From contig NC_079878.1 in the NCBI RefSeq assembly GCF_029227915.1, positions 6,758,001 to 6,822,000 of the forward strand: a stretch of DNA of 64,000 nucleotides, in the 5' to 3' direction. The position numbers and the translations under genes are program-made. The stretch is from Hydractinia symbiolongicarpus (taxonomy: Eukaryota; Cnidaria; Hydrozoa; Anthoathecata; Hydractiniidae). A model generated the notes under the pieces. That model did not search any database. It saw nothing but the letters and a program-made list of their open reading frames with translations, and was not told where the DNA came from. Below are positions 1 to 64,000 of the stretch, one piece after another; within the stretch, counting starts at the first letter, position 1, and each line of letters begins with the position of its first letter.

Positions 1-34
1 TCATATTTCTCACGCTTTGATACGAGTCCAAGCA

Positions 35-42
35 ATGCAAAT
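35..42 (+). promoter_or_regulatory. Octamer-like motif ATGCAAAT, unit 1
   Basis: This is a perfect match to the octamer bound by POU-domain factors such as Oct-1 in animals, which occurs in the distal elements of snRNA and tRNA-Sec genes. It recurs once per unit; in unit 2 it is at 730-737, about 114 bp upstream of unit 1's tRNA-Ile(AAT). An 8-base match can arise by chance, so a role is uncertain. Confidence 0.3.
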
Positions 43-103
43 AGCCGCAACCCGCTCGAAAGAGGAGTCATGTTAGGCCAACTTTAAACGGACATTCCCT
101 GAA

Positions 104-176
104 AGCCCTCGGAGAGATTTGAACTCTCGACCCCTGGTTTACAAGACCAGTGCTCTAACCCCTGAGCTACGAAGGC
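104..176 (-). tRNA. trnT(ugu): tRNA-Thr(TGT), unit 1 (reference copy)
   Basis: This 73-base gene decodes threonine ACA codons, and ACG by wobble. Read on minus it folds as a full cloverleaf: acceptor GCCTTCG with CGAGGGC (one T-G pair at 4-69), D-stem GCTC/GAGC, anticodon stem CTGGT/ACCAG, loop CTTGTAA with anticodon TGT (141-143 on plus), variable GGGTC, T-stem GAGAG/CTCTC and loop TTCAAAT. The A box starts at T8 and the B box spans positions 53-61. The discriminator is T, as in animal tRNA-Thr, and no CCA is encoded. The body from the D-arm to the variable loop looks like vertebrate tRNA-Thr(TGT). It is divergent from the tRNA-Ile(TAT) gene 149 bp away. There is no T4 terminator close behind its 3' end. 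Confidence 0.97.
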
Positions 177-325
177 ACGCGATCCTTGCCAAATACGAAA
201 AGTCGGTGCATCAGGCAAAACAGGCCAGTTGCAACGTGTACTTGCCATAAAGTGATACCGTCAATGCCCTACTGGACCATGACTATTCTAATCACGGACC
301 TCAGCTTTCCCGTTAACATCCACGG
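177..325. other. Spacer between divergent tRNA-Thr and tRNA-Ile(TAT), unit 1
   Basis: These 149 bp are the shared 5' flank of two divergent genes and recur in all units. I see no further RNA gene, no clear TATA element at a useful distance and no strong hairpin. An open frame starting at a TTG at 186 begins here but runs through both tRNA-Ile genes and is not a gene. Confidence 0.7.
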
Positions 326-418
326 GCTCCAGTGGCGTAGTCGGTTATCGCGTCGTACTTATAAGTCAGTATCGACAAAGACATGCGAAGATCGGGAGTT
401 CGAGCCTCCCCTGGAGCA
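326..418 (+). tRNA. trnI(uau): tRNA-Ile(TAT) with intron, unit 1 (reference position; G22T variant)
   Basis: This gene is 93 bases with the intron and 74 after splicing, and decodes isoleucine AUA. The acceptor is GCTCCAG with CTGGAGC and discriminator A418. The anticodon stem is TCGTA with TGCGA, interrupted after position 37 by a 19-base intron. The anticodon TAT is at 360-362, the T-stem is GGGAG/CTCCC and the loop TTCGAGC. A and B boxes are intact in the consensus. The layout matches animal tRNA-Ile(TAT), which normally carries an intron here. A T4 terminator follows 7 bases downstream. This first copy differs from most others by T for G at position 22, turning the T13-G22 pair into a T-T mismatch; unit 6 shares the change. 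Confidence 0.95.
364..382 (+). other. Intron of tRNA-Ile(TAT), unit 1
   Basis: Nineteen bases sit between position 37 (A363) and position 38 (A383), the usual place of eukaryotic nuclear tRNA introns. The third base from the intron's 3' end is G380, which can pair with C32 at 358, the anticodon-intron pair that tRNA splicing endonuclease needs. The intron GTA at 369-371 can pair with the anticodon TAT using one wobble. The intron recurs in all 92 units; the only changes noticed are in units 80 and 83. Confidence 0.88.
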
Positions 419-425
419 AGGTTTC

Positions 426-429
426 TTTT
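426..429 (+). terminator. Pol III T4 terminator of tRNA-Ile(TAT), unit 1
   Basis: Four T residues lie 7 bases past the discriminator and are preceded by TTTC. This is a typical RNA polymerase III stop and is present in every unit read. Confidence 0.88.
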
Positions 430-513
430 CATGCGCCGTCAACACACGCCACAGCACGGGCAGATCACCAGTAAAATCTAGCAACGTGGCAGTGCACCCA
501 GGTTGTTTTGATC

Positions 514-528
514 CCGTCAACGTGACGG
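514..528. other. Small perfect hairpin in convergent spacer, unit 1
   Basis: CCGTCA and TGACGG form a 6-bp stem around a three-base loop, ACG. It lies 15 bases beyond the tRNA-Ile(AAT) 3' end in that gene's reading direction. It recurs in every unit; unit 28 changes only the loop. No function is shown. Confidence 0.6.
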
Positions 529-538
529 CAAAGCCCGT

Positions 539-542
539 AAAA
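539..542 (-). terminator. Pol III T4 terminator of tRNA-Ile(AAT), unit 1
   Basis: AAAA on plus reads as TTTT on minus directly after the discriminator A of the tRNA-Ile(AAT) gene. It is intact in all units except 34 and 87, where one base change leaves only TTT. Confidence 0.88.
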
Positions 543-616
543 TGGCCAGTGTGGGGCTCGAACCCACGACATTCGCGTTATTAGCACGACGCTCTAGCCG
601 ACTGAGCTAACCGGCC
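543..616 (-). tRNA. trnI(aau): tRNA-Ile(AAT), unit 1 (reference copy)
   Basis: This 74-base gene has no intron. On minus the acceptor is GGCCGGT with ACTGGCC and discriminator A, the D-stem is GCTC/GAGC, and the anticodon stem is TCGTG/CGCGA. The loop CTAATAA has anticodon AAT, whose A34 is expected to become inosine and read AUU, AUC and AUA. The variable loop is ATGTC, the T-stem GTGGG/CCCAC and the loop TTCGAGC. It closely resembles animal tRNA-Ile(AAT). A and B boxes are complete and T4 follows at once. Its 5' side carries a direct repeat CGTGAAC (616-622 and 624-630) and, about 52-63 bp upstream, an A/T tract. Confidence 0.97.
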
Positions 617-798
617 GTGAACGCGTGAACACGGACTCACTTCCTATGTCAACTCTAAGCAAAATACTTTTATTTTTTTACTTAAAACGTTACCGTCATA
701 TTTCTCACGCTTTGATACGAGTCCAAGCAATGCAAATAGCCGCAACCCGCTCGAAAGAGGAGTCATGTTAGGCCAACTTTAAACGGACATTCCCTGAA
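617..798. other. Long spacer between tRNA-Ile(AAT) and the next unit's tRNA-Thr
   Basis: This is the longest gene-free stretch of the unit, 182 bp. It holds T4 at 668-671 and T7 at 673-679 on plus, AAAA at 684-687, which is the first minus-strand T4 reached by transcripts of the unit-2 tRNA-Thr, and an octamer-like motif at 730-737. No RNA or protein gene is seen. Confidence 0.7.
668..679. promoter_or_regulatory. T4-A-T7 tract upstream of tRNA-Ile(AAT), unit 1
   Basis: On plus it is a strong T tract that would stop any Pol III transcript coming from the left. On minus it is an A-rich, loosely TATA-like element 52-63 bp upstream of the tRNA-Ile(AAT) gene, and could also keep nucleosomes away. 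Some units have a base change just beyond it (TTTTTTG in 15, 18, 34 and 63) or within it (TTTTCTT in 47, 54 and 58). Its role is inferred. Confidence 0.4.
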
Positions 799-871
799 AG
801 CCCTCGGAGAGATTTGAACTCTCGACCCCTGGTTTACAAGACCAGTGCTCTAACCCCTGAGCTACGAAGGC
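799..871 (-). tRNA. trnT(ugu): tRNA-Thr(TGT), unit 2
   Basis: Same as unit 1. Confidence 0.95.
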
Positions 872-1020
872 ACGCGATCCTTGCCAAATACGAAAAGTCG
901 GTGCATCAGGCAAAACAGGCCAGTTGCAACGTGTACTTGCCATAAAGTGATACCGTCAATGCCCTACTGGACCATGACTATTCTAATCACGGACCTCAGC
1001 TTTCCCGTTAACATCCACGG

Positions 1021-1113
1021 GCTCCAGTGGCGTAGTCGGTTAGCGCGTCGTACTTATAAGTCAGTATCGACAAAGACATGCGAAGATCGGGAGTTCGAGC
1101 CTCCCCTGGAGCA
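1021..1113 (+). tRNA. trnI(uau): tRNA-Ile(TAT), intron, unit 2
   Basis: First consensus copy: G22 present, so the T13-G22 pair closes the D-stem. Intron 1059-1077. Confidence 0.96.
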
Positions 1114-1237
1114 AGGTTTCTTTTCATGCGCCGTCAACACACGCCACAGCACGGGCAGATCACCAGTAAAATCTAGCAACGTGGCAGTGCACCCAGGTTG
1201 TTTTGATCCCGTCAACGTGACGGCAAAGCCCGTAAAA

Positions 1238-1311
1238 TGGCCAGTGTGGGGCTCGAACCCACGACATTCGCGTTATTAGCACGACGCTCTAGCCGACTGA
1301 GCTAACCGGCC
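1238..1311 (-). tRNA. trnI(aau): tRNA-Ile(AAT), unit 2
   Basis: Same as unit 1. Confidence 0.95.
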
Positions 1312-1493
1312 GTGAACGCGTGAACACGGACTCACTTCCTAAGTCAACTCTAAGCAAAATACTTTTATTTTTTTACTCAAAACGTTACCGTCATATTTCT
1401 CACGCTTTGATAGGAGTCCAAGCAATGCAAATAGCCGCAACCCGCTCGAAAGAGGAGTCATGTTAGGCCAACTTTAAACGGACATTCCCTGAA

Positions 1494-1566
1494 AGCCCAC
1501 GGAGAGATTTGAACTCTCGACCCCTGGTTTACAAGACCAGTGCTCTAACCCCTGAGCTACGAAGGC
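1494..1566 (-). tRNA. trnT(ugu): tRNA-Thr(TGT), unit 3, A68T
   Basis: A68 is T, giving a T5-T68 mismatch in the acceptor stem. Shared with units 6 and 8. Confidence 0.88.
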
Positions 1567-1715
1567 ACGCGATCCTTGCCAAATACGAAAAGTCGGTGCA
1601 TCAGGCAAAACAGGCCAGTTGCAACGTGTACTTGCCATAAAGTGATACCGTCAATGCCCTACTGGACCATGACTATTCTAATCACGGACCTCAGCTTTCC
1701 CGTTAACATCCACGG

Positions 1716-1808
1716 GCTCCAGTGGCGTAGTCGGTTAGCGCGTCGTACTTATAAGTCAGTATCGACAAAGACATGCGAAGATCGGGAGTTCGAGCCTCCC
1801 CTGGAGCA
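1716..1808 (+). tRNA. trnI(uau): tRNA-Ile(TAT), intron, unit 3
   Basis: Consensus. Confidence 0.95.
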
Positions 1809-1932
1809 AGGTTTCTTTTCATGCGCCGTCAACACACGCCACAGCACGGGCAGATCACCAGTAAAATCTAGCAACGTGGCAGTGCACCCAGGTTGTTTTG
1901 ATCCCGTCAACGTGACGGCAAAGCCCGTAAAA

Positions 1933-2006
1933 TGGCCAGTGTGGGGCTCGAACCCACGACATTCGCGTTATTAGCACGACGCTCTAGCCGACTGAGCTAA
2001 CCGGCC
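1933..2006 (-). tRNA. trnI(aau): tRNA-Ile(AAT), unit 3
   Basis: Consensus. Confidence 0.95.
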
Positions 2007-2188
2007 GTGAACGCGTGAACACGGACTCACTTCCTAAGTCAACTCTAAGCAAAATACTTTTATTTTTTTACTCAAAACGTTACCGTCATATTTCTCACGC
2101 TTTGATACGAGTCCAAGCAATGCAAATAGCCGCAACCCGCTCGAAAGAGGAGTCATGTTAGGCCAACTTTAAACGGACATTCCCTGAA

Positions 2189-2261
2189 AGCCCTCGGAGA
2201 GATTTGAACTCTCCTCCCCTGGTTTACAAGACCAGTGCTCTAACCCCTGAGCTACGAAGGC
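2189..2261 (-). tRNA. trnT(ugu): tRNA-Thr(TGT), unit 4, T47A/C48G
   Basis: Variable-loop TC at 47-48 is AG, which removes the G15-C48 Levitt pair. Shared with unit 9. Confidence 0.88.
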
Positions 2262-2410
2262 ACGCGATCCTTGCCAAATACGAAAAGTCGGTGCATCAGG
2301 CAAAACAGGCCAGTTGCAACGTGTACTTGCCATAAAGTGATACCGTCAATGCCCTACTGGACCATGACTATTCTAATCACGGACCTCAGCTTTCCCGTTA
2401 ACATCCACGG

Positions 2411-2503
2411 GCTCCAGTGGCGTAGTCGGTTAGCGCGTCGTACTTATAAGTCAGTATCGACAAAGACATGCGAAGATCGGGAGTTCGAGCCTCCCCTGGA
2501 GCA
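2411..2503 (+). tRNA. trnI(uau): tRNA-Ile(TAT), intron, unit 4
   Basis: Consensus. Confidence 0.95.
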
Positions 2504-2627
2504 AGGTTTCTTTTCATGCGCCGTCAACACACGCCACAGCACGGGCAGATCACCAGTAAAATCTAGCAACGTGGCAGTGCACCCAGGTTGTTTTGATCCC
2601 GTCAACGTGACGGCAAAGCCCGTAAAA

Positions 2628-2701
2628 TGGCCAGTGTGGGGCTCGAACCCACGACATTCGCGTTATTAGCACGACGCTCTAGCCGACTGAGCTAACCGGC
2701 C
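2628..2701 (-). tRNA. trnI(aau): tRNA-Ile(AAT), unit 4
   Basis: Consensus. Confidence 0.95.
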
Positions 2702-2883
2702 GTGAACGCGTGAACACGGACTCACTTCCTAAGTCAACTCTAAGCAAAATACTTTTATTTTTTTACTCAAAACGTTACCGTCATATTTCTCACGCTTTGA
2801 TACGAGTCCAAGCAATGCAAATAGCCGCAACCCGCTCGAAAGAGGAGTCATGTTAGGCCAACTTTAAACGGACATTCCCTGAA

Positions 2884-2956
2884 AGCCCTCGGAGAGATTT
2901 GAACTCTCGACCCCTGGTTTACAAGACCAGTGCTCTAACCCCTGAGCTACGAAGGC
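2884..2956 (-). tRNA. trnT(ugu): tRNA-Thr(TGT), unit 5
   Basis: Consensus. Confidence 0.95.
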
Positions 2957-3105
2957 ACGCGATCCTTGCCAAATACGAAAAGTCGGTGCATCAGGCAAAA
3001 CAGGCCAGTTGCAACGTGTACTTGCCATAAACTGATACCGTCAATGCCCTACTGGACCATGACTATTCTAATCACGGACCTCAGCTTTCCCGTTAACATC
3101 CACGG

Positions 3106-3198
3106 GCTCCAGTGGCGTAGTCGGTTAGCGCGTCGTACTTATAAGTCAGTATCGACAAAGACATGCGAAGATCGGGAGTTCGAGCCTCCCCTGGAGCA
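3106..3198 (+). tRNA. trnI(uau): tRNA-Ile(TAT), intron, unit 5
   Basis: Consensus. Confidence 0.95.
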
Positions 3199-3322
3199 AG
3201 GTTTCTTTTCATGCGCCGTCAACACACGCCACAGCACGGGCAGATCACCAGTAAAATCTAGCAACGTGGCAGTGCACCCAGGTTGTTTTGATCCCGTCAA
3301 CGTGACGGCAAAGCCCGTAAAA

Positions 3323-3396
3323 TGGCCAGTGTGGGGCTCGAACCCACGACATTCGCGTTATTAGCACGACGCTCTAGCCGACTGAGCTAACCGGCC
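3323..3396 (-). tRNA. trnI(aau): tRNA-Ile(AAT), unit 5
   Basis: Consensus. Confidence 0.95.
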
Positions 3397-3578
3397 GTGA
3401 ACGCGTGAACACGGACTCACTTCCTAAGTCAACTCTAAGCAAAATACTTTTATTTTTTTACTCAAAACGTTACCGTCATATTTCTCACGCTTTGATACGA
3501 GTCCAAGCAATGCAAATAGCCGCAACCCGCTCGAAAGAGGAGTCATGTTAGGCCAACTTTAAACGGACATTCCCTGAA

Positions 3579-3651
3579 AGCCCACGGAGAGATGCGAACT
3601 CTCGATCCCTGGTTTACAAGACCAGTGCTCTAACCCCTGAGCTACGAAGGC
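3579..3651 (-). tRNA. trnT(ugu): tRNA-Thr(TGT), unit 6, T-loop damaged
   Basis: Four changes: A68T in the acceptor, A57G and A58C in the T-loop, G46A in the variable loop. A58 is nearly universal and lies in the B box, so this copy is probably poorly transcribed or misfolded. Confidence 0.7.
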
Positions 3652-3800
3652 ACGCGATCCTTGCCAAATACGAAAAGTCGGTGCATCAGGCAAAACAGGC
3701 CAGTTGCAACGTGTACTTGCCATAAAGTGATACCGTCAATGCCCTACTGGACCATGACTATTCTAATCACGGACCTCAGCTTTCCCGTTAACATCCACGG

Positions 3801-3893
3801 GCTCCAGTGGCGTAGTCGGTTATCGCGTCGTACTTATAAGTCAGTATCGACAAAGACATGCGAAGATCGGGAGTTCGAGCCTCCCCTGGAGCA
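3801..3893 (+). tRNA. trnI(uau): tRNA-Ile(TAT), intron, unit 6, G22T
   Basis: G22T as in unit 1. Confidence 0.92.
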
Positions 3894-4017
3894 AGGTTTC
3901 TTTTCATGCGCCGTCAACACACGCCACAGCACGGGCAGATCACCAGTAAAATCTAGCAACGTGGCAGTGCACCCAGGTTGTTTTGATCCCGTCAACGTGA
4001 CGGCAAAGCCCGTAAAA

Positions 4018-4091
4018 TGGCCAGTGTGGGGCTCGAACCCACGACATTCGCGTTATTAGCACGACGCTCTAGCCGACTGAGCTAACCGGCC
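4018..4091 (-). tRNA. trnI(aau): tRNA-Ile(AAT), unit 6
   Basis: Consensus. Confidence 0.95.
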
Positions 4092-4273
4092 GTGAACGCG
4101 TGAACACGGACTCACTTCCTATGTCAACTCTAAGCAAAATACTTTTATTTTTTTACTCAAAACGTTACCGTCATATTTCTCACGCTTTGATACGAGTCCA
4201 AGCAATGCAAATAGCCGCAACCCGCTCGAAAGAGGAGTCATGTTAGGCCAACTTTAAACGGACATTCCCTGAA

Positions 4274-4346
4274 AGCCCTCGGAGAGATTTGAACTCTCGA
4301 CCCCTGGTTTACAAGACCAGTGCTCTAACCCCTGAGCTACGAAGGC
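4274..4346 (-). tRNA. trnT(ugu): tRNA-Thr(TGT), unit 7
   Basis: Consensus. Confidence 0.95.
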
Positions 4347-4495
4347 ACGCGATCCTTGCCAAATACGAAAAGTCGGTGCATCAGGCAAAACAGGCCAGTT
4401 GCAACGTGTACTTGCCATAAAGTGATACCGTCAATGCCCTACTGGACCATGACTATTCTAATCACGGACCTCAGCTTTCCCGTTAACATCCACGG

Positions 4496-4588
4496 GCTCC
4501 AGTGGCGTAGTCGGTTAGCGCGTCGTACTTATAAGTCAGTATCGACAAAGACATGCGAAGATCGGGAGTTCGAGCCTCCCCTGGAGCA
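4496..4588 (+). tRNA. trnI(uau): tRNA-Ile(TAT), intron, unit 7
   Basis: Consensus. Confidence 0.95.
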
Positions 4589-4712
4589 AGGTTTCTTTTC
4601 ATGCGCCGTCAACACACGCCACAGCACGGGCAGATCACCAGTAAAATCTAGCAACGTGGCAGTGCACCCAGGTTGTTTTGATCCCGTCAACGTGACGGCA
4701 AAGCCCGTAAAA

Positions 4713-4786
4713 TGGCCAGTGTGGGGCTCGAACCCACGACATTCGCGTTATTAGCACGACGCTCTAGCCGACTGAGCTAACCGGCC
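4713..4786 (-). tRNA. trnI(aau): tRNA-Ile(AAT), unit 7
   Basis: Consensus. Confidence 0.95.
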
Positions 4787-4968
4787 GTGAACGCGTGAAC
4801 ACGGACTCACTTCCTAAGTCAACTCTAAGCAAAATACTTTTATTTTTTTACTCAAAACGTTACCGTCATATTTCTCACGCTTTGATACGAGTCCAAGCAA
4901 TGCAAATAGCCGCAACCCGCTCGAAAGAGGAGTCATGTTAGGCCAACTTTAAACGGACATTCCCTGAA

Positions 4969-5041
4969 AGCCCACGGAGAGATTTGAACTCTCGACCCCT
5001 GGTTTACAAGACCAGTGCTCTAACCCCTGAGCTACGAAGGC
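4969..5041 (-). tRNA. trnT(ugu): tRNA-Thr(TGT), unit 8, A68T
   Basis: A68T as in unit 3. Confidence 0.88.
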
Positions 5042-5190
5042 ACGCGATCCTTGCCAAATACGAAAAGTCGGTGCATCAGGCAAAACAGGCCAGTTGCAAC
5101 GTGTACTTGCCATAAAGTGATACCGTCAATGCCCTACTGGACCATGACTATTCTAATCACGGACCTCAGCTTTCCCGTTAACATCCACGG

Positions 5191-5283
5191 GCTCCAGTGG
5201 CGTAGTCGGTTAGCGCGTCGTACTTATAAGTCAGTATCGACAAAGACATGCGAAGATCGGGAGTTCGAGCCTCCCCTGGAGCA
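5191..5283 (+). tRNA. trnI(uau): tRNA-Ile(TAT), intron, unit 8
   Basis: Consensus. Confidence 0.95.
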
Positions 5284-5407
5284 AGGTTTCTTTTCATGCG
5301 CCGTCAACACACGCCACAGCACGGGCAGATCACCAGTAAAATCTAGCAACGTGGCAGTGCACCCAGGTTGTTTTGATCCCGTCAACGTGACGGCAAAGCC
5401 CGTAAAA

Positions 5408-5481
5408 TGGCCAGTGTGGGGCTCGAACCCACGACATTCGCGTTATTAGCACGACGCTCTAGCCGACTGAGCTAACCGGCC
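5408..5481 (-). tRNA. trnI(aau): tRNA-Ile(AAT), unit 8
   Basis: Consensus. Confidence 0.95.
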
Positions 5482-5663
5482 GTGAACGCGTGAACACGGA
5501 CTCACTTCCTAAGTCAACTCTAAGCAAAATACTTTTATTTTTTTACTCAAAACGTTACCGTCATATTTCTCACGCTTTGATACGAGTCCAAGCAATGCAA
5601 ATAGCCGCAACCCGCTCGAAAGAGGAGTCATGTTAGGCCAACTTTAAACGGACATTCCCTGAA

Positions 5664-5736
5664 AGCCCTCGGAGAGATTTGAACTCTCCTCCCCTGGTTT
5701 ACAAGACCAGTGCTCTAACCCCTGAGCTACGAAGGC
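5664..5736 (-). tRNA. trnT(ugu): tRNA-Thr(TGT), unit 9, T47A/C48G
   Basis: Same double change as unit 4. Confidence 0.88.
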
Positions 5737-5885
5737 ACGCGATCCTTGCCAAATACGAAAAGTCGGTGCATCAGGCAAAACAGGCCAGTTGCAACGTGTA
5801 CTTGCCATAAAGTGATACCGTCAATGCCCTACTGGACCATGACTATTCTAATCACGGACCTCAGCTTTCCCGTTAACATCCACGG

Positions 5886-5978
5886 GCTCCAGTGGCGTAG
5901 TCGGTTAGCGCGTCGTACTTATAAGTCAGTATCGACAAAGACATGCGAAGATCGGGAGTTCGAGCCTCCCCTGGAGCA
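5886..5978 (+). tRNA. trnI(uau): tRNA-Ile(TAT), intron, unit 9
   Basis: Consensus. Confidence 0.95.
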
Positions 5979-6102
5979 AGGTTTCTTTTCATGCGCCGTC
6001 AACACACGCCACAGCACGGGCAGATCACCAGTAAAATCTAGCAACGTGGCAGTGCACCCAGGTTGTTTTGATCCCGTCAACGTGACGGCAAAGCCCGTAA
6101 AA

Positions 6103-6176
6103 TGGCCAGTGTGGGGCTCGAACCCACGACATTCGCGTTATTAGCACGACGCTCTAGCCGACTGAGCTAACCGGCC
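6103..6176 (-). tRNA. trnI(aau): tRNA-Ile(AAT), unit 9
   Basis: Consensus. Confidence 0.95.
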
Positions 6177-6358
6177 GTGAACGCGTGAACACGGACTCAC
6201 TTCCTAAGTCAACTCTAAGCAAAATACTTTTATTTTTTTACTCAAAACGTTACCGTCATATTTCTCACGCTTTGATACGAGTCCAAGCAATGCAAATAGC
6301 CGCAACCCGCTCGAAAGAGGAGTCATGTTAGGCCAACTTTAAACGGACATTCCCTGAA

Positions 6359-6431
6359 AGCCCTCGGAGAGATTTGAACTCTCGACCCCTGGTTTACAAG
6401 ACCAGTGCTCTAACCCCTGAGCTACGAAGGC
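6359..6431 (-). tRNA. trnT(ugu): tRNA-Thr(TGT), unit 10
   Basis: Consensus. Confidence 0.95.
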
Positions 6432-6580
6432 ACGCGATCCTTGCCAAATACGAAAAGTCGGTGCATCAGGCAAAACAGGCCAGTTGCAACGTGTACTTGC
6501 CATAAACTGATACCGTCAATGCTCTACTGGACCATGACTATTCTAATCACGGACCTCAGCTTTCCCGTTAACATCCACGG

Positions 6581-6673
6581 GCTCCAGTGGCGTAGTCGGT
6601 TAGCGCGTCGTACTTATAAGTCAGTATCGACAAAGACATGCGAAGATCGGGAGTTCGAGCCTCCCCTGGAGCA
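6581..6673 (+). tRNA. trnI(uau): tRNA-Ile(TAT), intron, unit 10
   Basis: Consensus. Confidence 0.95.
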
Positions 6674-6797
6674 AGGTTTCTTTTCATGCGCCGTCAACAC
6701 ACGCCACAGCACGGGCAGATCACCAGTAAAATCTAGCAACGTGGCAGTGCACCCAGGTTGTTTTGATCCCGTCAACGTGACGGCAAAGCCCGTAAAA

Positions 6798-6871
6798 TGG
6801 CCAGTGTGGGGCTCGAACCCACGACATTCGCGTTATTAGCACGACGCTCTAGCCGACTGAGCTAACCGGCC
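6798..6871 (-). tRNA. trnI(aau): tRNA-Ile(AAT), unit 10
   Basis: Consensus. Confidence 0.95.
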
Positions 6872-7053
6872 GTGAACGCGTGAACACGGACTCACTTCCT
6901 AAGTCAACTCTAAGCAAAATACTTTTATTTTTTTACTCAAAACGTTACCGTCATATTTCTCACGCTTTGATACGAGTCCAAGCAATGCAAATAGCCGCAA
7001 CCCGCTCGAAAGAGGAGTCATGTTAGGCCAACTTTAAACGGACATTCCCTGAA

Positions 7054-7748: not shown

Positions 7749-7814
7749 AGCCCTCGGACAACTCTCGACCCCTGGTTTACAAGACCAGTGCTCTAACCCC
7801 TGAGCTACGAAGGC
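7749..7814 (-). pseudogene. trnT(ugu): Broken tRNA-Thr(TGT), unit 12, 7-bp deletion
   Basis: Seven bases are missing, with one adjacent substitution. This removes most of the T-loop and the 3' half of the T-stem, leaving 66 bases. The acceptor, D and anticodon arms and the TGT anticodon remain. Loss of the B box makes Pol III transcription unlikely. It is the only length change within a tRNA-Thr gene in the window. Confidence 0.9.
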
Positions 7815-29508: not shown

Positions 29509-29600
29509 GCTCCAGTGCGTAGTCGGTTAGCGCGTCGTACTTATAAGTCAGTATCGACAAAGACATGCGAAGATCGGGAGTTCGAGCCTCCCCTGGAGCA
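29509..29600 (+). tRNA. trnI(uau): tRNA-Ile(TAT), intron, unit 43, 1-bp deletion
   Basis: One G of the GG at positions 9-10 is gone, so the gap between acceptor and D-stem or the D-stem itself is one base short and the A box is altered. Total 92 bases. Likely impaired. Confidence 0.8.
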
Positions 29601-31883: not shown

Positions 31884-32065
31884 GTGAACGCGTGAACACG
31901 GACTCACTTCCTATGTCAACTCTAAGCAAAATACTTTTATTTTTTTACTCAAAACGTTACCGTCATATTTCTCACGCTTTGATACGAGTCCAAGCAATGC
32001 AAATAGCCGCAACCCGCTCGAAAGAGGAGTCATGTTAGGCCAACTTTAAACGGACATTCCCTGAA

Positions 32066-32138
32066 AGCCCTCGGAGAGATTTGAACTCTCGACCCCTGGT
32101 TTACAAGACCAGTGCTCTAACCCCTGAGCTACGAAGGC
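32066..32138 (-). tRNA. trnT(ugu): tRNA-Thr(TGT), unit 47
   Basis: Consensus. Confidence 0.95.
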
Positions 32139-32287
32139 ACGCGATCCTTGCCAAATACGAAAAGTCGGTGCATCAGGCAAAACAGGCCAGTTGCAACGTG
32201 TACTTGCCATAAAGTGATACCGTCAATGCCCTACTGGACCATGACTATTCTAATCACGGACCTCAGCTTTCCCGTTAACATCCACGG

Positions 32288-32380
32288 GCTCCAGTGGCGT
32301 AGTCGGTTAGCGCGTCGTACTTATAAGTCAGTATCGACAAAGACATGCGAAGATCGGAAGTTCGAGCCTCCCCTGGAGCA
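32288..32380 (+). tRNA. trnI(uau): tRNA-Ile(TAT), intron, unit 47, G51A
   Basis: G51A gives an A51-C63 mismatch in the T-stem. Shared with unit 54. Confidence 0.9.
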
Positions 32381-32504
32381 AGGTTTCTTTTCATGCGCCG
32401 TCAACACACGCCACAGCACGGGCAGATCACCAGTAAAATCTAGCAACGTGGCAGTGCACCCAGGTTGTTTTGATCCCGTCAACGTGACGGCAAAGCCCGT
32501 AAAA

Positions 32505-32578
32505 TGGCCAGTGTGGGGCTCGAACCCACGACATTCGCGTTATTAGCACGACGCTCTAGCCGACTGAGCTAACCGGCC
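32505..32578 (-). tRNA. trnI(aau): tRNA-Ile(AAT), unit 47
   Basis: Gene consensus; 5' flank has GTGCAC for GTGAAC, as in units 54 and 58. Confidence 0.95.
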
Positions 32579-32760
32579 GTGAACGCGTGCACACGGACTC
32601 ACTTCCTAAGTCAACTCTAAGCAAAATACTTTTATTTTCTTACTCAAAACGTTACCGTCATATTTCTCACGCTTTGATACGAGTCCAAGAAATGCAAATA
32701 GCCGCAACCCGCTCGAAAGAGGAGTCATGTTAGGCCAACTTTAAACGGACATTCCCTGAA

Positions 32761-32833
32761 AGCCCTCGGAGAGATTTGAACTCTCGACCCCTGGTTTACA
32801 AGACCAGTGCTCTAACCCCTGAGCTACGAAGGC
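32761..32833 (-). tRNA. trnT(ugu): tRNA-Thr(TGT), unit 48
   Basis: Consensus. Confidence 0.95.
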
Positions 32834-32982
32834 ACGCGATCCTTGCCAAATACGAAAAGTCGGTGCATCAGGCAAAACAGGCCAGTTGCAACGTGTACTT
32901 GCCATAAAGTGATACCGTCAATGCCCTACTGGACCATGACTATTCTAATCACGGACCTCAGCTTTCCCGTTAACATCCACGG

Positions 32983-33075
32983 GCTCCAGTGGCGTAGTCG
33001 GTTAGCGCGTCGTACTTATAAGTCAGTATCGACAAAGACATGCGAAGATCGGGAGTTCGAGCCTCCCCTGGAGCA
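32983..33075 (+). tRNA. trnI(uau): tRNA-Ile(TAT), intron, unit 48
   Basis: Consensus. Confidence 0.95.
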
Positions 33076-33199
33076 AGGTTTCTTTTCATGCGCCGTCAAC
33101 ACACGCCACAGCACGGGCAGATCACCAGTAAAATCTAGCAACGTGGCAGTGCACCCAGGTTGTTTTGATCCCGTCAACGTGACGGCAAAGCCCGTAAAA

Positions 33200-33273
33200 T
33201 GGCCAGTGTGGGGCTCGAACCCACGACATTCGCGTTATTAGCACGACGCTCTAGCCGACTGAGCTAACCGGCC
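33200..33273 (-). tRNA. trnI(aau): tRNA-Ile(AAT), unit 48
   Basis: Consensus. Confidence 0.95.
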
Positions 33274-33455
33274 GTGAACGCGTGAACACGGACTCACTTC
33301 CTAAGTCAACTCTAAGCAAAATACTTTTATTTTTTTACTCAAAACGTTACCGTCATATTTCTCACGCTTTGATACGAGTCCAAGCAATGCAAATAGCCGC
33401 AACCCGCTCGAAAGAGGAGTCATGTTAGGCCAACTTTAAACGGACATTCCCTGAA

Positions 33456-36748: not shown

Positions 36749-36930
36749 GTGAACGCGTGAACACGGACTCACTTCCTATGTCAACTCTAAGCAAAATACT
36801 TTTATTTTTTTACTCAAAACGTTACCGTCATATTTCTCACGCTTTGATACGAGTCCAAGCAATGCAAATAGCCGCAACCCGCTCGAAAGAGGAGTCATGT
36901 TAGGCCAACTTTAAACGGACATTCCCTGAA

Positions 36931-37003
36931 AGCCCTCGGAGAGATTTGAACTCTCGACCCCTGGTTTACAAGACCAGTGCTCTAACCCCTGAGCTACGAA
37001 GGC
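36931..37003 (-). tRNA. trnT(ugu): tRNA-Thr(TGT), unit 54
   Basis: Consensus. Confidence 0.95.
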
Positions 37004-37152
37004 ACGCGATCCTTGCCAAATACGAAAAGTCGGTGCATCAGGCAAAACAGGCCAGTTGCAACGTGTACTTGCCATAAAGTGATACCGTCAATGCCCTACT
37101 GGACCATGACTATTCTAATCACGGACCTCAGCTTTCCCGTTAACATCCACGG

Positions 37153-37245
37153 GCTCCAGTGGCGTAGTCGGTTAGCGCGTCGTACTTATAAGTCAGTATC
37201 GACAAAGACATGCGAAGATCGGAAGTTCGAGCCTCCCCTGGAGCA
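37153..37245 (+). tRNA. trnI(uau): tRNA-Ile(TAT), intron, unit 54, G51A
   Basis: G51A as in unit 47. Confidence 0.9.
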
Positions 37246-37369
37246 AGGTTTCTTTTCATGCGCCGTCAACACACGCCACAGCACGGGCAGATCACCAGTA
37301 AAATCTAGCAACGTGGCAGTGCACCCAGGTTGTTTTGATCCCGTCAACGTGACGGCAAAGCCCGTAAAA

Positions 37370-37443
37370 TGGCCAGTGTGGGGCTCGAACCCACGACATT
37401 CGCGTTATTAGCACGACGCTCTAGCCGACTGAGCTAACCGGCC
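37370..37443 (-). tRNA. trnI(aau): tRNA-Ile(AAT), unit 54
   Basis: Gene consensus; 5' flank GTGCAC as in unit 47. Confidence 0.95.
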
Positions 37444-37625
37444 GTGAACGCGTGCACACGGACTCACTTCCTAAGTCAACTCTAAGCAAAATACTTTTAT
37501 TTTCTTACTCAAAACGTTACCGTCATATTTCTCACGCTTTGATACGAGTCCAAGAAATGCAAATAGCCGCAACCCGCTCGAAAGAGGAGTCATGTTAGGC
37601 CAACTTTAAACGGACATTCCCTGAA

Positions 37626-37698
37626 AGCCCTCGGAGAGATTTGAACTCTCGACCCCTGGTTTACAAGACCAGTGCTCTAACCCCTGAGCTACGAAGGC
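37626..37698 (-). tRNA. trnT(ugu): tRNA-Thr(TGT), unit 55
   Basis: Consensus. Confidence 0.95.
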
Positions 37699-37847
37699 AC
37701 GCGATCCTTGCCAAATACGAAAAGTCGGTGCATCAGGCAAAACAGGCCAGTTGCAACGTGTACTTGCCATAAAGTGATACCGTCAATGCCCTACTGGACC
37801 ATGACTATTCTAATCACGGACCTCAGCTTTCCCGTTAACATCCACGG

Positions 37848-37940
37848 GCTCCAGTGGCGTAGTCGGTTAGCGCGTCGTACTTATAAGTCAGTATCGACAA
37901 AGACATGCGAAGATCGGGAGTTCGAGCCTCCCCTGGAGCA
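37848..37940 (+). tRNA. trnI(uau): tRNA-Ile(TAT), intron, unit 55
   Basis: Consensus. Confidence 0.95.
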
Positions 37941-38064
37941 AGGTTTCTTTTCATGCGCCGTCAACACACGCCACAGCACGGGCAGATCACCAGTAAAATC
38001 TAGCAACGTGGCAGTGCACCCAGGTTGTTTTGATCCCGTCAACGTGACGGCAAAGCCCGTAAAA

Positions 38065-38138
38065 TGGCCAGTGTGGGGCTCGAACCCACGACATTCGCGT
38101 TATTAGCACGACGCTCTAGCCGACTGAGCTAACCGGCC
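38065..38138 (-). tRNA. trnI(aau): tRNA-Ile(AAT), unit 55
   Basis: Consensus. Confidence 0.95.
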
Positions 38139-38320
38139 GTGAACGCGTGAACACGGACTCACTTCCTAAGTCAACTCTAAGCAAAATACTTTTATTTTTT
38201 TACTCAAAACGTTACCGTCATATTTCTCACGCTTTGATACGAGTCCAAGCAATGCAAATAGCCGCAACCCGCTCGAAAGAGGAGTCATGTTAGGCCAACT
38301 TTAAACGGACATTCCCTGAA

Positions 38321-49953: not shown

Positions 49954-50135
49954 GTGAACGCGTGAACACGGACTCACTTCCTAAGTCAACTCTAAGCAAA
50001 ATACTTTTATTTTTTTACTCAAAACGTTACCGTCATATTTCTCACGCTTTGATACGAGTCCAAGCAATGCAAATAGCCGCAACCCGCTCGAAAGAGGAGT
50101 CATGTTAGGCCAACTTTAAACGGACATTCCCTGAA

Positions 50136-50208
50136 AGCCCTCGGAGAGATTTGAACTCTCGACCCCTGGTTTACAAGACCAGTGCTCTAACCCCTGAGCT
50201 ACGAAGGC
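50136..50208 (-). tRNA. trnT(ugu): tRNA-Thr(TGT), unit 73
   Basis: Consensus. Confidence 0.95.
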
Positions 50209-50357
50209 ACGCGATCCATGCCAAATACGAAAAGTCGGTGCATCAGGCAAAACAGGCCAGTTGCAACGTGTACTTGCCATAAAGTGATACCGTCAATGCC
50301 CTACTGGACCATGACTATTCTAATCACGGACCTCAGCTTTCCCGTTAACATCCACGG

Positions 50358-50450
50358 GCTCCAGTGGCGTAGTCGGTTAGCGCGTCGTACTTATAAGTCA
50401 GTATCGACAAAGACATGCGAAGATCGGGAGTTCGAGCCTCCCCTGGAGCA
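50358..50450 (+). tRNA. trnI(uau): tRNA-Ile(TAT), intron, unit 73
   Basis: Consensus. Confidence 0.95.
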
Positions 50451-50574
50451 AGGTTTCTTTTCATGCGCCGTCAACACACGCCACAGCACGGGCAGATCAC
50501 CAGTAAAATCTAGCAACGTGGCAGTGCACCCAGGTTGTTTTGATCCCGTCAACGTGACGGCAAAGCCCGTAAAA

Positions 50575-50648
50575 TGGCCAGTGTGGGGCTCGAACCCACG
50601 ACATTCGCGTTATTAGCACAACGCTCTAGCCGACTGAGCTAACCGGCC
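50575..50648 (-). tRNA. trnI(aau): tRNA-Ile(AAT), unit 73, C28T
   Basis: C28T leaves a T28-G42 wobble in the anticodon stem. Shared with unit 76. Confidence 0.92.
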
Positions 50649-50830
50649 GTGAACGCGTGAACACGGACTCACTTCCTAAGTCAACTCTAAGCAAAATACT
50701 TTTATTTTTTTACTCAAAACGTTACCGTCATATTTCTCACGCTTTGATACGAGTCCAAGCAATGCAAATAGCCGCAACCCGCTCGAAAGAGGAGTCATGT
50801 TAGGCCAACTTTAAACGGACATTCCCTGAA

Positions 50831-50903
50831 AGCCCTCGGAGAGATTTGAACTCTCGACCCCTGGTTTACAAGACCAGTGCTCTAACCCCTGAGCTACGAA
50901 GGC
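50831..50903 (-). tRNA. trnT(ugu): tRNA-Thr(TGT), unit 74
   Basis: Gene consensus; the 5' flank has CGCC for CGCG, shared with unit 77. Confidence 0.95.
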
Positions 50904-51052
50904 ACGCCATCCTTGCCAAATACGAAAAGTCGGTGCATCAGGCAAAACAGGCCAGTTGCAACGTGTACTTGCCATAAAGTGATACCGTCAATGCCCTACT
51001 GGACCATGACTATTCTAATCCCCGACCTCAGCTTTCCCGTTAACATCCACGG

Positions 51053-51145
51053 GCTCCAGTGGCGTAGTCGGTTAGCGCGTCGTACTTTTAAGTCAGTATC
51101 GACAAAGACATGCGAAGATCGGGAGTTCGAGCCTCCCCTGGAGCA
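51053..51145 (+). tRNA. tRNA-Ile scaffold with anticodon TTT, unit 74
   Basis: A35 is T at 51088, so the anticodon at 51087-51089 reads TTT, a lysine anticodon, in an otherwise intact tRNA-Ile(TAT) body with its intron. The same change makes TTTT at 51086-51089, an internal Pol III stop inside exon 1. If transcription stops there no tRNA forms; if it is read through, the product could insert a wrong amino acid at AAA. The 5' flank also has CCCC for CACG near 51021, shared with unit 77. Confidence 0.85.
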
Positions 51146-51269
51146 AGGTTTCTTTTCATGCGCCGTCAACACACGCCACAGCACGGGCAGATCACCAGTA
51201 AAATCTAGCAACGTGGCAGTGCACCCAGGTTGTTTTGATCCCGTCAACGTGACGGCAAAGCCCGTAAAA

Positions 51270-51343
51270 TGGCCAGTGTGGGGCTCGAACCCACGACATT
51301 CGCGTTATTAGCACGACGCTCTAGCCGACTGAGCTAACCGGCC
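51270..51343 (-). tRNA. trnI(aau): tRNA-Ile(AAT), unit 74
   Basis: Consensus. Confidence 0.95.
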
Positions 51344-51525
51344 GTGAACGCGTGAACACGGACTCACTTCCTAAGTCAACTCTAAGCAAAATACTTTTAT
51401 TTTTTTACTCAAAACGTTACCGTCATATTTCTCACGCTTTGATACGAGTCCAAGCAATGCAAATAGCCGCAACCCGCTCGAAAGAGGAGTCATGTTAGGC
51501 CAACTTTAAACGGACATTCCCTGAA

Positions 51526-52038: not shown

Positions 52039-52220
52039 GTGAACGCGTGAACACGGACTCACTTCCTAAGTCAACTCTAAGCAAAATACTTTTATTTTTT
52101 TACTCAAAACGTTACCGTCATATTTCTCACGCTTTGATACGAGTCCAAGCAATGCAAATAGCCGCAACCCGCTCGAAAGAGGAGTCATGTTAGGCCAACT
52201 TTAAACGGACATTCCCTGAA

Positions 52221-52293
52221 AGCCCTCGGAGAGATTTGAACTCTCGACCCCTGGTTTACAAGACCAGTGCTCTAACCCCTGAGCTACGAAGGC
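52221..52293 (-). tRNA. trnT(ugu): tRNA-Thr(TGT), unit 76
   Basis: Consensus. Confidence 0.95.
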
Positions 52294-52442
52294 ACGCGAT
52301 CCATGCCAAATACGAAAAGTCGGTGCATCAGGCAAAACAGGCCAGTTGCAACGTGTACTTGCCATAAAGTGATACCGTCAATGCCCTACTGGACCATGAC
52401 TATTCTAATCACGGACCTCAGCTTTCCCGTTAACATCCACGG

Positions 52443-52535
52443 GCTCCAGTGGCGTAGTCGGTTAGCGCGTCGTACTTATAAGTCAGTATCGACAAAGACA
52501 TGCGAAGATCGGGAGTTCGAGCCTCCCCTGGAGCA
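52443..52535 (+). tRNA. trnI(uau): tRNA-Ile(TAT), intron, unit 76
   Basis: Consensus. Confidence 0.95.
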
Positions 52536-52659
52536 AGGTTTCTTTTCATGCGCCGTCAACACACGCCACAGCACGGGCAGATCACCAGTAAAATCTAGCA
52601 ACGTGGCAGTGCACCCAGGTTGTTTTGATCCCGTCAACGTGACGGCAAAGCCCGTAAAA

Positions 52660-52733
52660 TGGCCAGTGTGGGGCTCGAACCCACGACATTCGCGTTATTA
52701 GCACAACGCTCTAGCCGACTGAGCTAACCGGCC
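52660..52733 (-). tRNA. trnI(aau): tRNA-Ile(AAT), unit 76, C28T
   Basis: C28T as in unit 73. Confidence 0.92.
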
Positions 52734-52915
52734 GTGAACGCGTGAACACGGACTCACTTCCTAAGTCAACTCTAAGCAAAATACTTTTATTTTTTTACTC
52801 AAAACGTTACCGTCATATTTCTCACGCTTTGATACGAGTCCAAGCAATGCAAATAGCCGCAACCCGCTCGAAAGAGGAGTCATGTTAGGCCAACTTTAAA
52901 CGGACATTCCCTGAA

Positions 52916-52988
52916 AGCCCTCGGAGAGATTTGAACTCTCGACCCCTGGTTTACAAGACCAGTGCTCTAACCCCTGAGCTACGAAGGC
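52916..52988 (-). tRNA. trnT(ugu): tRNA-Thr(TGT), unit 77
   Basis: Gene consensus; 5' flank CGCC as in unit 74. Confidence 0.95.
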
Positions 52989-53137
52989 ACGCCATCCTTG
53001 CCAAATACGAAAAGTCGGTGCATCAGGCAAAACAGGCCAGTTGCAACGTGTACTTGCCATAAAGTGATACCGTCAATGCCCTACTGGACCATGACTATTC
53101 TAATCCCCGACCTCAGCTTTCCCGTTAACATCCACGG

Positions 53138-53230
53138 GCTCCAGTGGCGTAGTCGGTTAGCGCGTCGTACTTTTAAGTCAGTATCGACAAAGACATGCGA
53201 AGATCGGGAGTTCGAGCCTCCCCTGGAGCA
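53138..53230 (+). tRNA. tRNA-Ile scaffold with anticodon TTT, unit 77
   Basis: Same A35T change as unit 74: anticodon TTT at 53172-53174 and internal TTTT at 53171-53174. Confidence 0.85.
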
Positions 53231-53354
53231 AGGTTTCTTTTCATGCGCCGTCAACACACGCCACAGCACGGGCAGATCACCAGTAAAATCTAGCAACGTG
53301 GCAGTGCACCCAGGTTGTTTTGATCCCGTCAACGTGACGGCAAAGCCCGTAAAA

Positions 53355-53428
53355 TGGCCAGTGTGGGGCTCGAACCCACGACATTCGCGTTATTAGCACG
53401 ACGCTCTAGCCGACTGAGCTAACCGGCC
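53355..53428 (-). tRNA. trnI(aau): tRNA-Ile(AAT), unit 77
   Basis: Consensus. Confidence 0.95.
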
Positions 53429-53610
53429 GTGAACGCGTGAACACGGACTCACTTCCTAAGTCAACTCTAAGCAAAATACTTTTATTTTTTTACTCAAAAC
53501 GTTACCGTCATATTTCTCACGCTTTGATACGAGTCCAAGCAATGCAAATAGCCGCAACCCACTCGAAAGAGGAGTCATGTTAGGCCAACTTTAAACGGAC
53601 ATTCCCTGAA

Positions 53611-57085: not shown

Positions 57086-57158
57086 ATCCCTCGGAGAGAT
57101 TTGAATTCTCGACCCCTGGTTTACAAGACAAGTGCTCTAACCCCTGAGCTACGAAGGC
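57086..57158 (-). tRNA. trnT(ugu): tRNA-Thr(TGT), unit 83, three stem mismatches
   Basis: C72A breaks the first acceptor pair, G53A the pair closing the T-loop and a B-box base, and G29T the middle of the anticodon stem. Probably a decayed copy. Confidence 0.68.
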
Positions 57159-62265: not shown

Positions 62266-62389
62266 AGGTTTCTTTTCATGCGCCGTCAACACACGCCACA
62301 GCACGGGCAGATCACCAGTAAAATCTAGCAACGTGGCAGTGCACCCAGGTTGTTTTGATCCCGTCAACGTGACGGCAAAGCCCGTAAAA

Positions 62390-62463
62390 TGGCCAGTGTG
62401 GGGCTCGAACCCACGACATTCGCGTTATTAGCACGACGCTCTAGCCGACTGAGCTAACCGGCC
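62390..62463 (-). tRNA. trnI(aau): tRNA-Ile(AAT), unit 90
   Basis: Consensus. Confidence 0.95.
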
Positions 62464-62645
62464 GTGAACGCGTGAACACGGACTCACTTCCTAAGTCAAC
62501 TCTAAGCAAAATACTTTTATTTTTTTACTCAAAACGTTACCGTCATATTTCTCACGCTTTGATACGAGTCCAAGCAATGCAAATAGCCGCAACCCGCTCG
62601 AAAGAGGAGTCATGTTAGGCCAACTTTAAACGGACATTCCCTGAA

Positions 62646-62718
62646 AGCCCTCGGAGAGATTTGAACTCTCGACCCCTGGTTTACAAGACCAGTGCTCTAA
62701 CCCCTGAGCTACGCAGGC
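62646..62718 (-). tRNA. trnT(ugu): tRNA-Thr(TGT), unit 91, T5G
   Basis: T5G gives a G5-A68 mismatch in the acceptor. Confidence 0.88.
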
Positions 62719-62867
62719 ACGCGATCCTTGCCAAATACGAAAAGTCGGTGCATCAGGCAAAACAGGCCAGTTGCAACGTGTACTTGCCATAAAGTGATAC
62801 CGTCAATGCCCTACTGGACCATGACTATTCTAATCACGGACCTCAGCTTTCCCGTTAACATCCACGG

Positions 62868-62960
62868 GCTCCAGTGGCGTAGTCGGTTAGCGCGTCGTAC
62901 TTATAAGTCAGTATCGACAAAGACATGCGAAGATCGGGAGTTCGAGCCTCCCCTGGAGCA
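62868..62960 (+). tRNA. trnI(uau): tRNA-Ile(TAT), intron, unit 91
   Basis: Consensus. Confidence 0.95.
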
Positions 62961-63084
62961 AGGTTTCTTTTCATGCGCCGTCAACACACGCCACAGCACG
63001 GGCAGATCACCAGTAAAATCTAGCAACGTGGCAGTGCACCCAGGTTGTTTTGATCCCGTCAACGTGACGGCAAAGCCCGTAAAA

Positions 63085-63158
63085 TGGCCAGTGTGGGGCT
63101 CGAACCCACGACATTCGCGTTATTAGCACGACGCTCTAGCCGACTGAGCTAACCGGCC
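63085..63158 (-). tRNA. trnI(aau): tRNA-Ile(AAT), unit 91
   Basis: Consensus. Confidence 0.95.
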
Positions 63159-63340
63159 GTGAACGCGTGAACACGGACTCACTTCCTAAGTCAACTCTAA
63201 GCAAAATACTTTTATTTTTTTACTCAAAACGTTACCGTCATATTTCTCACGCTTTGATACGAGTCCAAGCAATGCAAATAGCCGCAACCCGCTCGAAAGA
63301 GGAGTCATGTTAGGCCAACTTTAAACGGACATTCCCTGAA

Positions 63341-63413
63341 AGCCCTCGGAGAGATTTGAACTCTCGACCCCTGGTTTACAAGACCAGTGCTCTAACCCCT
63401 GAGCTACGAAGGC
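63341..63413 (-). tRNA. trnT(ugu): tRNA-Thr(TGT), unit 92
   Basis: Consensus. Confidence 0.95.
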
Positions 63414-63562
63414 ACGCGATCCTTGCCAAATACGAAAAGTCGGTGCATCAGGCAAAACAGGCCAGTTGCAACGTGTACTTGCCATAAAGTGATACCGTCA
63501 ATGCCCTACTGGACCATGACTATTCTAATCACGGACCTCAGCTTTCCCGTTAACATCCACGG

Positions 63563-63655
63563 GCTCCAGTGGCGTAGTCGGTTAGCGCGTCGTACTTATA
63601 AGTCAGTATCGACAAAGACATGCGAAGATCGGGAGTTCGAGCCTCCCCTGGAGCA
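63563..63655 (+). tRNA. trnI(uau): tRNA-Ile(TAT), intron, unit 92
   Basis: Consensus. Confidence 0.95.
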
Positions 63656-63779
63656 AGGTTTCTTTTCATGCGCCGTCAACACACGCCACAGCACGGGCAG
63701 ATCACCAGTAAAATCTAGCAACGTGGCAGTGCACCCAGGTTGTTTTGATCCCGTCAACGTGACGGCAAAGCCCGTAAAA

Positions 63780-63853
63780 TGGCCAATGTGGGGCTCGAAC
63801 CCACGACATTCGCGTTATTAGCACGACGCTCTAGCCGACTGAGCTAACCGGCC
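63780..63853 (-). tRNA. trnI(aau): tRNA-Ile(AAT), unit 92, C67T
   Basis: C67T leaves a G6-T67 wobble in the acceptor. Confidence 0.92.
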
Positions 63854-63932
63854 GTGAACGCGTGAACACGGACTCACTTCCTAAGTCAACTCTAAGCAAA
63901 ATACTTTTATTTTTTTACTCAAAACGTTACCG

Positions 63933-64000
63933 TCATATTTCTCACGCTTTGATACGAGTCCAAGCAATGCAAATAGCCGCAACCCGCTCGAAAGAGGAGT
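63933..64000. repeat. Partial unit 93
   Basis: The first 68 bases of another unit, including the octamer-like motif at 63967-63974, are cut by the window edge before its tRNA-Thr gene. The array therefore goes on to the right, as it presumably does to the left. Confidence 0.95.

Follow-up and report, generated by a model that had tools for sequence, protein, structure and literature searches.

A Tandem Array of 92 tRNA Gene Triplets with Signs of Recent Expansion in Hydractinia symbiolongicarpus

Organization of the Array

The window analyzed here, a 64,000-bp stretch of the Hydractinia symbiolongicarpus genome (contig NC_079878.1, positions 6,758,001 to 6,822,000 of the forward strand), is occupied from end to end by a tandem array of transfer RNA (tRNA) genes. 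Counted from the first base, it comprises 92 complete units arranged head to tail and 68 bp of a 93rd; the units fill all 64,000 bp, and neither edge of the array lies inside the window. Each unit carries a tRNA-Thr(UGU) gene on the minus strand, a tRNA-Ile(UAU) gene with an intron on the plus strand and a tRNA-Ile(AAU) gene on the minus strand (Table 1). The unit length is 695 bp in 90 of the 92 units, the short ones being unit 12 (688 bp, start at 7646) and unit 43 (694 bp, start at 29184), and 65 of the 92 unit sequences are distinct. An earlier reading of the sequence alone (the sequence-only reading) had proposed at least 92 tRNA triplets, or 276 genes, with no boundary in view. This count is borne out: cmscan returned 138 tRNAs in 1-31962 and 138 in 31963-64000, that is, all 276 expected genes, every one above the Rfam gathering score. 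The fixed 695-bp spacing proposed in the same reading applies to all units except 12 and 43, and its gene content, Thr(TGT)-Ile(TAT)-Ile(AAT), describes the common unit but not a minority of copies with damaging or identity-changing mutations. Chance is no serious possibility as the origin of such regularity.

The consensus of each of the three genes shows zero mismatched stem pairs, and exact consensus exons are preserved in 69/92 Thr, 73/92 Ile(UAU) and 82/92 Ile(AAU) copies (224/276 in total). No CCA is encoded in the tRNA genes. An intron in tRNA-Ile(UAU), an isoleucine tRNA with A34 and the lack of an encoded CCA are marks of nuclear eukaryotic genes; all three occur here. ARAGORN found 266 genes with introns off, leaving most Ile(UAU) copies unnamed, and 274 with introns on: 92 Ile(AAT), 91 Thr(TGT), 87 Ile(TAT) with a 19-nt intron, 2 Lys(TTT) and 2 Leu(CAG). 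Absent from the intron-on list are two copies with deletions, Thr in unit 12 (7 bp) and Ile(UAU) in unit 43 (1 bp). The anticodon has truly changed in the two copies called Lys, in units 74 and 77, and the two Leu(CAG) calls, in units 21 and 59 with a common anticodon-stem change, are taken as a misreading by the program. In unit 1, neither direct repeats nor short tandem repeats were found, and the only inverted repeat of this unit lies between the two Ile genes.

Variation Among Units and Turnover

Averaged across the full-length units (90 of them, spacers included), divergence from the consensus amounts to 0.22%. For the complete set of 92, the number of substitutions per unit has a mean of 1.53 and a variance of 1.64, in good agreement with a Poisson distribution, and 74 of the 101 distinct substitutions are singletons, giving a Tajima's-D-like value of -2.77. 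Because the counts are Poisson-like and most substitutions are singletons, a star-like, recent expansion from one unit type is suggested. Insertions and deletions are confined to two events in 64 kb, as against the 101 distinct substitutions, and none of them affects the T7 run of the unit.

Variants common to at least two units number 27, and they are clustered along the array. Pairs sharing a variant lie at most 8 units apart in 37 of 59 cases, compared with a mean of 9.8 and a maximum of 26 in 10,000 shuffles, a test in which linked variants are counted repeatedly. When each unit pair is counted once, 27 of 48 are within 8 units (shuffled mean 8.4, maximum 21, again 10,000 shuffles), and when collinear pairs are merged, 16 of 36 are, compared with 17% expected (binomial p about 1e-4). 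The other 21 of the 48 variant-sharing unit pairs are further apart; therefore, distant exchange or recurrent mutation occurs too. Several of the shared variants fall into duplicated blocks at offsets of 3, 5, and 7 units (Table 1), all of them collinear, and one change is common to four neighboring units, 26-29. The copies of these blocks have since diverged by private changes, for example in units 1 and 6, which is the trace expected from real duplication followed by mutation. Shared variants clustered in collinear blocks form the pattern that unequal exchange would produce. The array thus looks real and recently expanded, with turnover ongoing.

Mutation and Selection in the tRNA Genes

Among the 44 distinct exon substitutions, 20 (45%) break a stem, where about 47% would do so by chance (Thr 9/22, Ile(UAU) 8/12, Ile(AAU) 3/10). 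By this measure, purifying selection on single copies is not detectable. Variable sites make up 40 of 221 positions in the tRNA exons and 55 of 474 elsewhere (Fisher p 0.024). With linked changes merged and one-sided testing, the exons hold 39 of 93 events (p 0.025) and the Thr gene alone 17 of 93 (p 0.016), and the Ile genes, taken as a pair with Thr left out, give p 0.18. Scan statistics calculated before merging were attained in 18, 7, and 16 of 2000 random sets for spans of 20, 49, and 73 bases, respectively. Compared with the spacers, the tRNA genes thus carry more variants per base, mostly via the Thr gene; the excess is marginal once linked changes are merged, and as the p-values are uncorrected across several tests, it is suggestive only and possibly due to chance. 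Within the unit, variants are densest in the Thr gene, with 20 of its 22 distinct substitutions in unit positions 105-153.

Transcription-associated mutation has been described for tRNA flanks (PMC8113476). It is a doubtful source of the excess seen here: the 30-base flanks are hardly denser in events than the other spacer (22 events/180 bases vs. 30/275), and the sense-strand spectra have no clear strand bias. The observed/expected ratio of CpG is 1.14, and CpG transitions account for 13 of the 101 substitutions, so that neither measure, taken over unit and window, gives a clear sign of decay by germline methylation. The same ratio would equally be expected in an organism without CpG methylation.

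A few copies are damaged or altered (Table 1). The Ile-to-Lys anticodon change is identical in units 74 and 77, which belong to the two halves of the offset-3 block, and it probably spread via block duplication; if expressed, these Ile copies with a UUU anticodon could take Lys or mistranslate. The Thr copy of unit 83 (57086-57158) has accumulated three substitutions, all stem-breaking, scores 46.8 bits and is a probable new pseudogene.

Signals for RNA Polymerase III

Signals for RNA polymerase III (Pol III) comprise an A box, a B box and a terminator, each with a consensus against which the genes were compared. The B boxes fit it in all three genes. The A boxes of both Ile genes were matched by script, and that of the Thr gene, missed by the script pattern, was recognized by eye. 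Both Ile genes are closely followed on their own strand by a T4 run that is a likely terminator. The genes of the array may be transcribed by Pol III.

Table 1. Coordinates of the array, of the elements of its reference unit and of duplicated or altered copies
Feature	Coordinates	Strand	Remarks
Tandem array, 92 full units + 68-bp partial unit	1..64000	.	edges beyond the window
Unit 1	1..695	.	reference register for unit coordinates
tRNA-Thr(UGU), 73 nt	104..176 (unit 1)	-	Rfam 70.2 bits in unit 1; in every unit, partly deleted in unit 12
tRNA-Ile(UAU), 93 nt including intron	326..418 (unit 1)	+	in every unit
19-nt intron of tRNA-Ile(UAU)	364..382 (unit 1)	+	one base 3' of the anticodon; ARAGORN
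T4 run, likely Pol III terminator	426..429 (within TTTCTTTT)	+	8 nt after tRNA-Ile(UAU)
T4 run, likely Pol III terminator	539..542	-	directly after tRNA-Ile(AAU) (+1)
tRNA-Ile(AAU), 74 nt	543..616 (unit 1)	-	in every unit
T-rich stretch, T4 A T7	668..679	+	contains the longest homopolymer of the unit; starts 250 nt past tRNA-Ile(UAU); upstream of the opposite-strand tRNA-Ile(AAU)
Duplicated block, offset 5	units 1-5 (1..3475) with units 6-10 (3476-6950)	.	variants of units 1, 3, 4, 5 recur in units 6, 8, 9, 10
Unit 12 tRNA-Thr copy	7749..7814	-	7-bp deletion in T arm region; 43 bits; probable pseudogene
Unit 43 tRNA-Ile(UAU) copy	29509..29600	+	1-bp deletion; 48.5 bits
Duplicated block, offset 7	units 47-48 (31963..33352) with units 54-55 (36828-38217)	.	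common variants
Duplicated block, offset 3	units 73-74 (50033..51422) with units 76-77 (52118-53507)	.	six common variants, nowhere else in the window
Unit 74 tRNA-Ile(UAU) copy	51053..51145	+	anticodon changed to UUU (Lys)
Unit 77 tRNA-Ile(UAU) copy	53138..53230	+	identical Ile-to-Lys anticodon change

Relation to Known tRNA Gene Arrays

With its many short head-to-tail units containing tRNA genes, near-identical even in their spacers, the window belongs to a known type of locus, the tandem arrays of eukaryotic tRNA genes; it is a large and very regular example and reveals no new kind of system. The sequence-only reading knew such arrays from Entamoeba and Xenopus and did not recognize the triplet. 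The implied rarity was too strong, as arrays have also been published for Phytophthora infestans, Hydractinia and Arabidopsis. The exact Thr-Ile-Ile triplet was not found in the main texts of the open-licence papers compared. Large tRNA clusters are described as having arisen independently many times in eukaryotes (Bermudez-Santana et al., PMC2888827).

In Phytophthora infestans, predicted tRNA genes number about 11,000; single-gene arrays account for about 64% of them and dimeric or trimeric ones for 36%. Examples are 271 Cys genes repeated with a 513-nt unit and 85 copies of a Val plus Ser pair in an 850-nt unit (PMC9584435). As in the present array, its short units with one to three tRNA genes are arranged head to tail, a trimeric Thr-Trp-Ser case included, and growth of the arrays is attributed to unequal crossing-over (PMC9584435). 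In contrast to the nearly uniform trimeric array described here, dimeric and trimeric arrays in P. infestans are reported to be much more diverse than monomeric ones, and the section on its arrays does not name the Thr(UGU)-Ile(UAU)-Ile(AAU) combination (PMC9584435).

Entamoeba likewise has long arrays with units of one to five tRNA genes, most unit copies being uniform, and their homogenization is attributed to concerted evolution (PMC2652664). In E. histolytica and E. dispar the spacers hold short tandem repeats, unlike those of unit 1 (PMC2652664). Complex repeats are likewise described as absent from Entamoeba species other than these two. The relevant part of the same report mentions no clear pseudogene copies, whereas a few damaged copies occur here (PMC2652664).

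In Hydractinia, tRNA arrays of tens to hundreds of copies covering all 20 amino acids have been reported, and the authors regard them as unusual outside Entamoeba, with one mammalian example (PMC11067881). Nematostella has more than 17,000 tRNA genes and pseudogenes, 89% of them clustered, and arrays were noted (Bermudez-Santana et al., PMC2888827). The gene composition of the array units is not described in the passages compared for either genus (PMC11067881, PMC2888827). What such arrays do is described as obscure or unclear by the authors of the Entamoeba (PMC2652664) and Hydractinia (PMC11067881) studies.

The Ser-Tyr-Tyr cluster of Arabidopsis resembles the present array in its repeated triplet with intron-bearing genes, its core of more uniform units and some pseudogenes (PMC12308677). 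It differs in that it consists of 27 Tyr-Tyr-Ser units (PMC12652284), and in that it is a plant locus that overlaps heterochromatin and is silent in most tissues (PMC12308677). In a bryophyte, up to 37 repeats of two- or three-gene tRNA units are reported (PMC12652284). The human 1q23.3 repeat is likewise a tandem one in which each unit has several tRNA genes, distributed over both strands, and its copy number is variable (PMC4041453). Its units, in contrast, are 7.3-kb long and include five tRNA genes and a CTCF site, with 98% inter-unit identity and 9-43 units per allele (PMC4041453).

Probable Origin and Possible Function of the Array

The array, its gene content, the pattern of variation and the clustering of shared variants are direct observations. 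They are probably best explained by a recently amplified and recombining array of Pol III tRNA genes that raises the dosage of the Ile tRNAs and of one Thr tRNA. One ancestral 695-bp segment with the Thr(UGU), Ile(UAU) and Ile(AAU) genes would have been amplified recently, and its copies would still be duplicated and homogenized, several neighboring units at a time, through unequal exchange or replication-based duplication, like arrays of ribosomal DNA and 5S genes. The probable effect would be a high dosage of the whole isoleucine set together with one threonine tRNA; the step from dosage to supply, like transcription, the dosage effect and the mechanism of exchange, is one that we infer from the sequence. 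Redundancy would shield single copies and lead to their neutral decay, and homogenization together with selection on the total would keep the common unit type intact. Such a clean trimeric array makes turnover directly readable, as star-like recent expansion with duplicated blocks set three to seven units apart, and it makes the neutral decay of single tRNA genes under redundancy visible. Whether selection on a tRNA array sees the copy, the unit or the total dosage, a long-standing question, thereby becomes measurable.

Several observations speak against an active dosage array. The higher variant density in the tRNA genes could mean that the genes are not needed. The first T4 run after the Thr gene appears only 112 nt downstream, so that the terminator of this gene may be weak, non-canonical or distant. 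Unconstrained folding gives a plain cloverleaf for the Thr gene, but this is not the best unconstrained structure for either Ile gene: the Ile(UAU) precursor reaches -29.3 kcal/mol with the four canonical stems enforced, and its unconstrained optimum is a different structure of -31.9 kcal/mol. No clear splice-site helix is predicted for the intron of this gene when the four stems are enforced. Finally, the most expanded tRNA families of P. infestans are reported to match rarely used codons (PMC9584435).

The strongest rival to the dosage explanation is a silent or conditionally active array. Here the locus would be a mostly silent, satellite-like block spread by recombination, its tRNA genes being passengers held in repressive chromatin or woken only in special cells, which is possible although rather doubtful. 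Two features of the variation fit this reading, namely the lack of visible purifying selection on single copies (20/44 stem-breaking) and the fact that variants are no rarer in genes than in spacers. There is also a precedent: the Ser-Tyr-Tyr cluster of Arabidopsis is reported to be methylated, silent in most tissues and reactivated in root-tip cells (PMC12308677). Yet all 276 genes still score as tRNAs, 224 with exact consensus exons, and CpG is not depleted. Moreover, neutral variation would be seen in any young, star-like array, be it active or silent, and the data do not separate the two.

A main role as a chromatin boundary or nuclear-organization block, of the kind suggested for the human tRNA repeat at 1q23.3, is a weaker candidate and appears unlikely. 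It can draw on the human repeat being CTCF-bound and located at a domain boundary (PMC4041453), and on the P. infestans authors, who raise a function in nuclear or chromatin organization (PMC9584435). Modest counterarguments are the scarcity of repeats in unit 1, with its single inverted repeat between the Ile genes and no direct ones, the human unit being ten times longer and mostly non-tRNA, and the scaffold/matrix attachment region (S/MAR) motifs of Entamoeba arrays, which are reported not to be conserved (PMC2652664). CTCF itself may be absent from the source organism of the window. Even more speculative, with a slim chance of being correct, is the idea that Thr(UGU) and a complete isoleucine anticodon set (AAU, UAU) might form a dedicated supply cassette for an Ile/Thr-rich tissue, stage or secreted protein, by analogy with the Ser-Tyr-Tyr cluster and with the maternally deposited tRNAs of zebrafish that come from repeat regions. 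Least probable of all is an assembly artefact in which a short real array was inflated by the assembler. Random errors would look Poisson too, but the variation consists almost entirely of substitutions (two insertion or deletion events, none in the T7 run) and is structured in blocks, which makes an artefact highly improbable. In addition, duplicated blocks have diverged after copying, as in units 1 and 6, 65 of the 92 units are distinct, and in P. infestans the tRNA gene numbers derived from arrays are reported to have agreed with read depth (PMC9584435).

Additional Features of the Window

No RNA family other than tRNA reaches the Rfam gathering threshold anywhere in the window. At E-values up to 1, positions 1-2200 yield nine matches to tRNA; a plastid family matches three times over the Thr gene, in antisense and below threshold, and these matches were rejected as chance. 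Viral contigs contain no exact match to a 65-base stretch of the Thr gene or to a degenerate 45-base stretch of the Ile(AAU) gene, and prokaryote genomes none to a 49-base stretch of the Thr gene. A distant search of a phage collection with the first 1400 bases retrieved 182 records; the best 20 of the 182 match the Thr gene region and are taken to reflect ordinary tRNA similarity. With the standard code, and leaving open ends aside, no open reading frame of at least 150 aa was found. Tandem Repeats Finder gave no hit on the window, its longest detectable period (500 bp) being below the unit length. A scan of 1-2085 for bacterial promoters and terminators gave 0 of each, with bacterial models that are not informative for a eukaryote. 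The guanine plus cytosine content of the unit is 50.5%. Over the whole window, A and C are in excess on the plus strand (17423 A and 17938 C vs. 14290 T and 14349 G), and the unit consensus is skewed likewise.

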